A stretch of 64,000 nucleotides of DNA from NCBI GenBank assembly GCA_013306675.1, contig JABLUY010000164.1:23407-87406 (forward strand), read 5' to 3'. The notes beneath the pieces were generated by a model. It was not told the origin of the DNA. It was given only the letters and a program-made list of their open reading frames with translations, and ran no database searches. This document shows, piece after piece, positions 9,775 through 27,529 of this stretch; position 1 is the stretch's first letter, and every line of letters starts with the position of its first letter. The stretch comes from Thraustochytrium sp. TN22. Taxonomy: Eukaryota; Sar; Bigyra; Thraustochytrida; Thraustochytriidae. A program made the position numbers and the translations under genes.

Positions 9775-10004
9775 TTGGTGAGCCCGTCTTTGTACGCTCG
9801 CGAGTCGTTAGTTGATTTCATACCACCGAAAAACAAAAACAAAACATACAATGCCAGTGACGTGACGTAGTTCGTGCATCCTTGTGGGTGGAGCCGGGTT
9901 CTGTATTGGTTCCAGTGGAGTTCCGAGGCAAGGGGGGAAGGCCTCGTCATCTACAGGAAGCGCGCGAGCTCAAGGGCTCAAGCACCAATCAATTACAGAG
10001 AACG
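9775..10004. other. Intergenic, BiP to TIR/HET-TPR gene
   Basis: 230 bases. An A-rich stretch (about 9827-9850) follows the BiP stop and is a plausible cleavage/polyadenylation neighbourhood. No gene is seen. Confidence 0.4.
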
Positions 10005-11759
10005 ATGCTCGCGACGGTGCGCGCCAGCCTGCAGCGCCGTCGCCGCAGCGCTGCCGCTGCGACCGCCACCGCCGCCGACCCCAACGTCGCTGGCCGCACG
10101 ACCACCGACGCCAGCGCGGCCATCGACTACCGCACCGTCAGCCTGCGCTTTCTCGTGCGCGTGCACGAGGACCTGCTTGCCAACGAGCTCGCCAAAGACA
10201 CCTGCCTGGTCGTGGCGACCCGCCCTCTAGGCCAGCGCGTGCAAAAGGGCGAGACGCTCCGCCTGCAGCCTCGACCCGGACTCGGAACCGGCACTGCCAG
10301 TGAGGCCGTCAGCAGCGAAGGCGAGCGCCTCGAGGTGGTCCTCGGCCACGACGTCGTGGAGAAGCCCCGCGACGAATGGAGCACCGAAGACGTCGCGGAG
10401 CACGTTGTGCGCGAGCGGGCGCGCGGGGTTCCAACAGAGAAGGCCAGCTTTCTCAACGCGGCGCCGCCAGAGGATGTCGGTGCCACATTTCAGGGACACT
10501 TCGTGAGTCATGTATGGCAGGCCTCGTTCGCGTGCCTCGTGGACAGTCTGCAGAGCCACTTCAAGGACACAGATCCGGGCGAGGTCTTCATTTGGCTTGA
10601 TCTTCTATGCATCAACCAGCTCGATGCGGGCGGCGCCCTTTCCGAGCGGGCCCTCACCAGCGGCCTGCACAACGCCTTGCGGTCCTTTCACAGCACGCTC
10701 GTCGTCCTGGACTGCTGGGACCAGCCCGCAGCGCTGCAGCGCACATGGTGTCTCTGGGAACTTGCTGGCGTCCCGCGGGGGTCCACGGTGGCTGTCTTCG
10801 CTCCCGGCGTCTCAGAGGTCTTCCTCGCGCAGCTCCTCCAGGACGCGGCCGACGTAGCTAGGGCACTTCCGGAGACGGTCCACGTCGACGAGGCGGCATG
10901 CAGCCGCCCCGCGGACAAGGCCATGCTTGACCGCGCCATCGAGGCGCTCCCCGGCGGGTCCGCGATGCTCGGTGTCCAACTCGCGAGCAGCATGAGGTCG
11001 TGGCTGGCGCGTCTGGTCATGGACGTGGTCGCTGCAGCTCCACGAGATGATCTGCAGCCTGGCGCTGACCTCGATTTCGGGCGTGCCCTCCGCGGAGCAG
11101 CCTTTCTGCTCGAGGATGGCGGCAGTCTGACGGAAGCTCTGCATGTCTATGAGGAGGCGCTCGCAAGGGCGACAGAGGCCTTCGGCCACCAGCACCCCGA
11201 CGTCGCGCTCGCGCTCGAGGGCGCCGCCGGGATTCACTGGATGCAGGGGCGCCTGGAGGAGGCGCTTCGCGTGCACGACGAGGCGCTACAGCTGAGGCGG
11301 TCGGTCCTTGGCCCGCTGCATCCTAGCGTGGCAACCTCCCTCGTGAGTATTGCCCGCGTCCACCACGCCCAGGACCGTCTGGACGAGGCGCTCACATGCT
11401 ACCAAGAGGCGCTCGAGATCATAGAGGGCGACCTCGGACCGCACCACCCCGAAGTTGCCACCATGCTCGTCACCGTCGCGGTGGTGCTCAAGGCGCAGGG
11501 CAGGCTCAGTGACGCGCTCGAATGCTCCGAGCGAGCACTCGAAATTCGCAGCGCTGCCCTCGGCGAGCGCCATGCGCTAGTAGCCAAGACCCTCGATGGG
11601 ATTGCGAATCTCCACCGTGCGCAAGGCGACCTGGAGACCGCGGCGACTATCTTCGAAGAGGCTGCGGACATCTGGCGAGACGCGCTCGGTCCGGAACACT
11701 CCTTTACAAGGGGCGCTCTCGAGAGCTCCCGCTCCTGTCGGGCGCACTTGTTAGCCTGA
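10005..11759 (+). CDS. TIR/HET-superfamily-like domain fused to kinesin-light-chain-type TPRs
   Basis: A protein of 584 residues from the ATG at 10005; the longer frame starts at a TTG and is not used. The N-terminus (1-30) is Arg/Ala-rich. Residues about 165-290 hold a TIR/HET-like domain. HFVSHVW occupies the first strand, IWLDLLCINQLD resembles the HET-domain signature (WxDxLCINQ), and LQRTWCLWEL resembles both the HET L.RxWxxQE and the TIR WCxxEL motif. Glu252 is in the position of the catalytic glutamate of TIR NADases. From about residue 360 there are four to five 42-residue TPRs of the kinesin-light-chain type (EALxxYEEAL....GxxHPxVA). TPR arrays on such domains usually act as the sensor or scaffold. 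Database tools would probably label it 'kinesin light chain' from the TPRs alone, which would mislead. The domain call is from motif reading and no fold search was possible. Confidence 0.7.
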   Translation: MLATVRASLQRRRRSAAAATATAADPNVAGRTTTDASAAIDYRTVSLRFLVRVHEDLLANELAKDTCLVVATRPLGQRVQKGETLRLQPRPGLGTGTASEAVSSEGERLEVVLGHDVVEKPRDEWSTEDVAEHVVRERARGVPTEKASFLNAAPPEDVGATFQGHFVSHVWQASFACLVDSLQSHFKDTDPGEVFIWLDLLCINQLDAGGALSERALTSGLHNALRSFHSTLVVLDCWDQPAALQRTWCLWELAGVPRGSTVAVFAPGVSEVFLAQLLQDAADVARALPETVHVDEAACSRPADKAMLDRAIEALPGGSAMLGVQLASSMRSWLARLVMDVVAAAPRDDLQPGADLDFGRALRGAAFLLEDGGSLTEALHVYEEALARATEAFGHQHPDVALALEGAAGIHWMQGRLEEALRVHDEALQLRRSVLGPLHPSVATSLVSIARVHHAQDRLDEALTCYQEALEIIEGDLGPHHPEVATMLVTVAVVLKAQGRLSDALECSERALEIRSAALGERHALVAKTLDGIANLHRAQGDLETAATIFEEAADIWRDALGPEHSFTRGALESSRSCRAHLLA

Positions 11760-25858: not shown

Positions 25859-27529
25859 CTAGATGGGAGGACGCGCTGCGCGCTGGACGACTACTGCTAC
25901 GGAGGAAATCTGAGGGTTGTTCTCCAGGCCAGGGAAATTGCTGAAGTTGACCTTGATGGACCGCCGACGCAGGAGCCACTTGAGCGCGTTCATGACGTCG
26001 ATCGGGAGCACGTCGACCTTCTCCAGGCGTTTCCAGTCCTCGTCGGCAAAGAGGTCCATGATGTTCTGGTAAGAGTACGTGTCAAAATTTCCCTCTGCGA
26101 ACTGACCATCGGCATCAACCGGCACGCAGCGTTTCCCGTCGCGCTGAGCTGTGACGATGGCAGCAACGCAGTCGCGCTGCTTCATAAGATCTCGCGAAAG
26201 AAGGACGCAGAAGACATCCGTTGCGTGCACATTCTGCACCACGAGGGAGAGTCCATGGCGCTGCGGGAACTGATTTTCGGGGATGGTGATCTGATCATCC
26301 ACCCTCTTGCAGAGCCCCTGATTCAGCAGCGCAGCGTAGGGGGAGGTCGACTGCCCACTGAAGCAGATCATCACAGAACGAGGCTCCAGAGGCCTTGACT
26401 TTGCAGGGGTCGCGACCACATCCTGTGGCACTCCGCAACAGAGCAGCTTGCGGCACGCAAAAGACACCAATGACGTTCTCTGTACGGGTACAGCATCGAA
26501 AGAGATGGTTCGGCCAGTGGCCTCAGGCACCGCGCAAGGCTGCACGGCAGGTGCGCGTCGGAAGATGTAACGGTGCACGGTGAAGTCCTCTGTCACGTCG
26601 CGTGGATCGTACCGCAGCACGAGCATCAGGTTCCCGTTCTTGAACACGAGCCTAGCCGTGGGATTCTTGTTCACAAAGAAGACAGCCTCGCCATGGGGAT
26701 ACCCTTCTTGCATGTTGACGAAGAGCATCGGTTCGGTCTTGGTGGCATCGGTAGACAAGGTTCGAAAGACGAAGCCCTGGCCGTGCATCATACCGCCTTT
26801 GAAGGTTCCGTAGTACTCAACGAGGTGGGTCGTGGTTGTGAGACGAGGCAGGAGAGCTGTGTCAAACCAAATGCTCGCGTTGTCTTTGGGTAGTGACCAA
26901 ACCCTGTCCGCAATGTACCTACTGTCGAAGTAGCGCTCCAATTTGTTCATACGGAGGATGGCTTGGAAGAGATCCTTTTGCTGAGCGGGATCCTTTGCCT
27001 TCGACAGAATGAAGTCTGCCGCGAAGCCACCTATCGCGCCGCCGGCAAGACCGACTCCCACCACAGGGGCTACAGGAACCGCTGCATGAGGGACAGCGCC
27101 GAATTTCATCGCCAAACTTGCGAGGACCTGACCGGCAGCCGGGAGCTCGCCTAAGGCAGTTGCGAACGCAACCGCTGCGCCGCCAGCGAAGAGAAGACTG
27201 GCACCGGCAAAAGCGGCGAGGCCTAAGGGCCCAGCCAAGACCCCGGCCACTCCTTGCCCAAGTGCAGTCATGCCTGCAGCGGCAGCAGCCTTGCCGAAGA
27301 TGACCCATCCGCTCGCGCCTGCAGCCAATGCGCCGAGTGCCGCTACGCCCGCGACCTTGCCAGTTCGTGTGTCATGGTCGCGCTTGATGGCCGCGATCGG
27401 GTTGGTATCCACCTCGCCTGCACGCCAGCTAGGCGGGAAGGCGATGCGGAGCAGCTTGGCCTGCTCATCCTCGCTGAGAAAGCCCGCTCGAGTCGCGCGC
27501 TCCAGCGATGCACGCTGGTTGCGCGACAT
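25859..27529 (-). CDS. Glycine-zipper membrane segment / MORN / TIR-like protein
   Basis: A protein of 556 residues, ATG at 27529. Residues 57-175 are very hydrophobic and rich in Gly and Ala (GVAALGALAAGASGWVIFG, GVGLAGGAIGGFAADF). This is the pattern of glycine-zipper hairpins that insert into membranes. Around residues 238-285 are MORN-type motifs (YYGTFKGGMMHGQGF, NMQEGYPHGEAVFF). The C-terminal 150 residues look like a TIR domain: VMICFSGQSTSPYAALL as the first strand and helix, DVFCVLLSRDLMKQRDCVAA as the middle block, and GKRCVPV as the next strand. Aligned with TIR LSxxFxxSxWCxxEL, the catalytic Glu position is Ala457. It may therefore be an adaptor or pseudo-enzyme rather than an NADase. 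Convergent with the sHSP gene. The domain assignments are by eye. Confidence 0.6.
   Translation of the reverse strand: MSRNQRASLERATRAGFLSEDEQAKLLRIAFPPSWRAGEVDTNPIAAIKRDHDTRTGKVAGVAALGALAAGASGWVIFGKAAAAAGMTALGQGVAGVLAGPLGLAAFAGASLLFAGGAAVAFATALGELPAAGQVLASLAMKFGAVPHAAVPVAPVVGVGLAGGAIGGFAADFILSKAKDPAQQKDLFQAILRMNKLERYFDSRYIADRVWSLPKDNASIWFDTALLPRLTTTTHLVEYYGTFKGGMMHGQGFVFRTLSTDATKTEPMLFVNMQEGYPHGEAVFFVNKNPTARLVFKNGNLMLVLRYDPRDVTEDFTVHRYIFRRAPAVQPCAVPEATGRTISFDAVPVQRTSLVSFACRKLLCCGVPQDVVATPAKSRPLEPRSVMICFSGQSTSPYAALLNQGLCKRVDDQITIPENQFPQRHGLSLVVQNVHATDVFCVLLSRDLMKQRDCVAAIVTAQRDGKRCVPVDADGQFAEGNFDTYSYQNIMDLFADEDWKRLEKVDVLPIDVMNALKWLLRRRSIKVNFSNFPGLENNPQISSVAVVVQRAARPPI

Follow-up and report, generated by a model that had tools for sequence, protein, structure and literature searches.

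A single open frame of 556 codons occupies positions 25859–27529 on the reverse strand of the window (the whole 64,000-nucleotide stretch of DNA analysed here), and its boundaries coincide exactly with those given in an earlier note on this DNA. The chance probability of such a frame, computed from its base composition, is approximately 2e-8; the gene is real. Its 556-aa product combines a hydrophobic region, MORN-like units and a TIR domain without the catalytic Glu, an arrangement traced with the help of two paralogues from the same genome, L005 and L006. This genome comprises 37.9 Mb in 453 contigs. Its PUFA-synthase profile matches are strong in one 3,044-residue frame (a total of 2,540 bits), adjoined by a divergent 2,083-residue frame that also gives a partial match, and a search of the whole genome returned no matches to light-harvesting genes. 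Paired divergent PUFA-synthase genes are a thraustochytrid trait, and these genes, together with the absence of light-harvesting matches, are consistent with a thraustochytrid host.

The only full-length paralogue found, L005 (598 aa; contig C447), matches residues 101–555 of the protein with an E-value of 6e-52. The other, L006 (contig C453), matches residues 384–556 (E 9e-26) and, within the limits of its contig, consists of a TIR domain alone; because it lies about 450 bases from the contig end and has an intron-like site upstream, judged by eye, this TIR-only status is provisional. Outside the domains discussed below, two blocks are conserved, namely the N-terminal part shared with L005 (residues 1–50, 27380–27529, reverse strand; FLxxDEQAxLLRxAFxPxWRAGxxDxxP) and the segment of residues 176–230 (26840–27004, reverse strand; DPxxQxxLFxxIxRxxxLxRxF...SxWFDxAxLPRL).

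The hydrophobic region and the MORN-like units

Between these two blocks lies the Gly/Ala-rich hydrophobic region (residues 57–175; 27005–27361, reverse strand), which is helical in a low-confidence model. The earlier description of some 120 such residues holds, as the region spans 119 residues, 51% of them Gly or Ala and only five charged, and with a mean Kyte–Doolittle value of 1.35 it ranks second when 119-residue stretches are compared across 244 open frames of at least 300 codons, taken from both strands and partly representing overlapping loci. Three 19-residue segments (59–77, 104–122 and 149–167) reach 1.74–1.92, above the usual threshold of 1.6. Since their Hessa-scale sums are positive throughout (1.0, 2.2 and 6.0, as plain sums of scale values and not from the full predictor) and the octanol scale (-1.4, 1.5 and 3.9) favours only one of the three, membrane insertion would be marginal. 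The corresponding region of L005 is longer, with a lower mean hydropathy (0.76 versus 1.35) and 18 charged positions in 166 residues, and its sequence is poorly conserved. Because hydrophobicity is thus partly kept and the sequence is not, an anchor fits the region better than a pore.

The term glycine zipper, under which this region had first been described, had to be abandoned, as the motifs are no more frequent than composition predicts: one GxxxGxxxG is present versus 0.81 expected from composition shuffles (p 0.53), and five GxxxG versus 4.5 (p 0.48). The earlier note had also allowed that the region might turn out to be the ordinary membrane helices of a transporter. No transporter family was matched in Pfam at E-values up to 10, where only TIR_2 and MORN were listed and the HMMER filters remove most weak matches, and in NCBIfam the hydrophobic part matched a single family, ATP synthase subunit c, and that very weakly (9.9/122 bits, E 0.7, residues 145–192). 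Three other weak similarities were taken as compositional chance, i.e. those of the hydrophobic and helical part to importin-alpha (best E 0.032), of the N-terminal profile to sensory rhodopsin transducer (best E 0.022), and of the Ala-rich part of L005 to another place in the genome (E 0.08).

The MORN-like motifs reported earlier are better described, by comparison with the consensus YxGxFxxGxxHGxG, as one fair and one weak unit, both kept in L005, in a protein that stays below the cut-off of the MORN profile (10.9 bits, and 16.8 bits for L005, against 22.5). Unit 1 (residues 237–258, YYGTFKGGMMHGQGFVF; 26756–26821, reverse strand) contains the Pfam match at residues 239–252, is also supported by pattern shuffles and profile comparison, and carries the sequence YYGTFKGGMMHGQG, conserved in L005; unit 2 (residues 268–289, EGYPHGEAVFF; 26663–26728, reverse strand) is degenerate. 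The pattern G-x(1-4)-H-G-x-[GA] was counted three times in the protein (one site twice, the search being overlapping) and twice in L005, counts that were reached in 0.06% and 1.4% of 5000 shuffles, respectively. Compared with the MORN proteins of the genome, this part yielded a weak profile match (17.9%, E 0.0014, 20 columns).

A degenerate TIR domain

The C-terminus consists of a degenerate TIR core (residues 385–478; 26096–26377, reverse strand), recognized from profile and paralogue evidence, followed by a family-specific part (residues 479–556; 25862–26095, reverse strand), in which the family alignment reveals the invariant motifs VLPIDVM, WL.RR and VV.RAA.PP. On its own, the domain scores 14.7 bits against Pfam TIR_2 (STIR clan) over residues 386–494, below the cut-off of 28, and it is absent from the 128 stretches returned by a genome-wide TIR_2 search. 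L005 reaches 24.4 bits, so that L006, with 32.3 bits, is the only member of the family above the cut-off, and the next three places in the genome found with L006, all weak (E 0.04–1.6), are TIR_2 stretches. When a profile of the three members, L006 included, was compared with that of 25 chosen other TIRs of the same genome, they matched at 91% (E 9.6e-7), versus 29.6% (E 5.7e-4) for the single sequence and 0.3% for the N-terminal part of the protein, which served as a control. In the PDB, the family profile reached eight sequences at E-values up to 1, every one of them a TIR domain (seven of SARM1 and one of flax L6), each match being weak (E 0.41–0.66, with SARM1 first at 0.41). In a tree of 59 TIR rows (two of 61 were left out, one short and one identical), the three members form one clade with 100/100 support.

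Although the domain falls below the Pfam cut-off, the paralogues, the family profile comparison and the PDB matches lead us to regard the C-terminus as a genuine but degenerate TIR domain, which bears out its original designation as TIR-like and makes its homology to TIRs demonstrable through L006. The AlphaFold2 single-sequence models were of low confidence (mean pLDDT 37 and 33) and not usable, and the TIR fold is therefore deduced from sequence alone.

Loss of the catalytic Glu

In the TIR alignment, the position of the catalytic Glu is occupied by Ala457 (codon GCC; 26159–26161, reverse strand), just as had been read from the sequence at first, and the same column holds the Glu of the HKEIVTAL stretch of SARM1. 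L005 has Gln501 (CAG) here and L006 has Glu (GAG), which provides the Glu-keeping paralogue that the earlier note had proposed to look for. Among 60 other TIR stretches read in the alignment, which include L005 and L006 and are mostly the better-scoring ones of the 128, so that retention may be overstated, 57 have Glu; Gln stands in two (L005 and L052), and Ala in one, the second TIR domain of L056. Given this retention in the others, the loss in our protein is notable and uncommon. Moreover, the Ser of the first strand, present in 46 of the 52 rows filled at this position, is replaced by Cys389. By its sequence, the protein is without the catalytic Glu of the alpha-C helix, and it is thus predicted to be no Glu-dependent TIR NADase. 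The tree joins it with L005 at 96/60 only, and hence either one or two losses of Glu within the family fit. L052 (contig C364), a TIR–NPHP3_N–WD40 protein with Gln at this position, lies elsewhere in the tree and has lost its Glu separately from the family described here.

Divergence is unevenly spread over the domain. In the active-site half, the protein shares 24 of 90 positions with L006 and 24 of 89 with L005 (27% each), while in the C-terminal part identity rises to 33 of 81 (41%) and 28 of 77 (36%), respectively; over the whole TIR region, 39 positions are invariant in all three members. The stronger divergence of the active-site half, combined with the retained C-terminal motifs, favours repurposing over decay, a pattern that fits the loss of the enzyme constraint and the retention of another.

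The TIR repertoire of the genome

Of the 128 TIR_2 stretches, 114 exceed the Pfam cut-off, and since near-copies and fragments of single genes are among them, the genes are fewer than the stretches. When 15 further TIR frames from the genome were scanned with Pfam, ankyrin repeats were recovered in three, NPHP3_N, which is NACHT-like, in three (two of them with WD40), Roc and/or COR in three, C-type lectin in two, MORN in two and ARM-type repeats in one, with TIR alone in the remaining frame. Judged by these domains, the combination of TIR with NPHP3_N and WD40, Roc–COR, ankyrin and ARM-type repeats represents an NLR-like repertoire in a protist.

The two lectin frames (locus L042, contig C447; 3877–5346 and 5842–7188, both on the reverse strand) are tandem C-type lectin and TIR genes with domains above the Pfam cut-offs, the Glu kept and, by eye, a probable single transmembrane helix between the domains. 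L005 adjoins them and is encoded in the same direction; by the called boundaries, 359 bases separate it from the closer of the two. The recurrence of MORN with TIR is due to another tandem pair, L058 on contig C435, in which the Glu is kept as well (QREW, by eye). On contig C160, at about 0.2–5.7 kb, tandem TIR stretches occur, four of them at a spacing of 1,043 bases and with one TGA inside each; this array of near-copies possibly reflects pseudogenes or an assembly effect.

Within the window itself, a second protein of the same type had been claimed 14 kb from the gene described here. The gene in question (9882–11759, forward strand) does encode strong TPRs, and its N-terminus displays a TIR/HET-like pattern (HFVSHVW, IWLDLLCINQ and RTWCLWEL), but no significant match to a TIR or HET profile was obtained, the best being Pfam HET (11.9/22.5 bits). 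Going by the WLDLLCINQ and WCLWEL pattern, a TIR/HET-like domain is possible in this protein.

Proposed function and alternatives

We propose, with a probability of about 0.42 for the whole chain, that the gene encodes a membrane-associated, catalytically dead TIR adaptor. The Gly/Ala-rich helices, perhaps together with the MORN-like units, would hold the protein at a membrane; with its Glu lost, the TIR domain would have given up the usual Glu-dependent cleavage of NAD+, and it would most likely bind other TIR domains of the repertoire, as an adaptor or as a brake. The Glu-keeping, TIR-only paralogue L006 is a candidate partner. Use as a scaffold or adaptor had been suggested before; the Glu- and Gln-bearing paralogues raise its plausibility, and the role itself is what we infer.

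The nearest contender, which we hold to be unlikely, is a relaxed and decaying paralogue that lost the Glu as the gene was losing its function, with the open frame as a remnant so far unbroken. It is a live rival because the TIR domain forms the longest branch of its clade (1.64 versus 0.82 and 0.28, flagged as long by the tree tool) and because third-position GC of the gene, 0.686, lies below that of five genes of the window (0.77–0.91) and of L005 and L006 (0.86–0.87). Against this speak the 556 intact codons with their low chance probability, the N-terminal, MORN-like and C-terminal motifs retained across approximately 35% identity, and the positions of the TIR region that are invariant in all three members. 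Only marginally less probable is a non-immune membrane scaffold, in which the MORN-like units and helices would direct the protein to the plasma membrane or an organelle, leaving the TIR fold as no more than a structural or dimerisation piece. MORN repeats are membrane and scaffold modules, and within the TIR region conservation is higher outside the NADase half, as such a role would have it; the company that TIRs keep in this genome looks receptor-like instead, with Roc–COR or NPHP3_N in six of the 15 other frames and C-type lectin in two, and L005 adjoins two lectin genes.

The reading offered originally, a cell-death effector whose hydrophobic region forms pores upon TIR oligomerisation, draws on the high hydrophobicity and Gly/Ala content of the region. 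We consider it improbable, given that glycine-zipper motifs are not enriched, that no pore-former family was matched in Pfam, NCBIfam or PADLOC, and that the L005 region carries the charged residues noted above; we class the protein with the TIR-domain proteins, as a divergent member, and not with the pore formers. Continued enzymatic activity through a Glu-independent route, conceivable insofar as other TIR enzymatic activities exist, is the least credible alternative, as the protein has neither the Glu nor the Ser of the first strand.

The proximity of L005 to the two tandem lectin–TIR genes invites a wider and rather doubtful reading, according to which lectin–transmembrane–TIR proteins would act as receptors and membrane-held, Glu-less TIR adaptors would relay or restrain their signal to Glu-bearing TIR enzymes, in a system arisen outside animals.

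Relation to known TIR proteins

TIRs of the adaptor type are known chiefly from animals. Should our proposal be correct, it would suggest that TIR adaptors arise repeatedly as TIR repertoires grow, since the organism here is a unicellular heterotroph whose genome has 114 TIR stretches above the cut-off besides the NLR-like architectures and the lectin–TIR genes. The three paralogues, with Glu, Gln and Ala, form a small natural series on the role of a TIR domain once catalysis is gone. A literature search returned nothing on TIR domains of thraustochytrids or labyrinthulomycetes, and a search for MORN repeats and TIR domains together returned just unrelated work, judged by title. According to one study, 7,432 eukaryotic TIR domains were collected from EukProt (PMC13142454), and the domain described here may already be among them. 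No relatives were confirmed in GTDB species genomes or IMG/VR with two peptide patterns (32 and 21 pattern matches), none were found in phages at E-values up to 1, and PADLOC found nothing in the protein.

Within the same genome, the L058 proteins resemble ours in uniting TIR with MORN; they differ in the reversed order, with TIR first, and in the retained Glu, and their MORN units, of which there are several, score 60.1 and 61.5 bits alongside TIR_2 scores of 21.7 (below the cut-off) and 42.2 bits. SARM1, which is an active NADase and also has ARM and SAM domains, supplies the PDB sequences that the family profile matches best, albeit weakly (E 0.41–0.58). The TIR domains of MyD88 and TIRAP/MAL are used for TIR–TIR contacts, and TIRAP is membrane-targeted. 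Both proteins are named in PMC13142454. They offer a functional parallel to the proposed role: where they have a death domain or a lipid-binding part, our protein, from another lineage, has the Gly/Ala-rich region and MORN-like units. The nearest studied parallel that we saw is a membrane-type protist TIR protein, TirC of Dictyostelium, which possesses an N-terminal hydrophobic region and is reported to be toxic in amoebae when this region is removed (PMC13142454). TirC has a single hydrophobic helix, the paper never mentions MORN, and the protein is reported to be an active NADase that keeps its catalytic Glu (E162); our protein differs from it in the MORN-like units and in the loss of that very residue.
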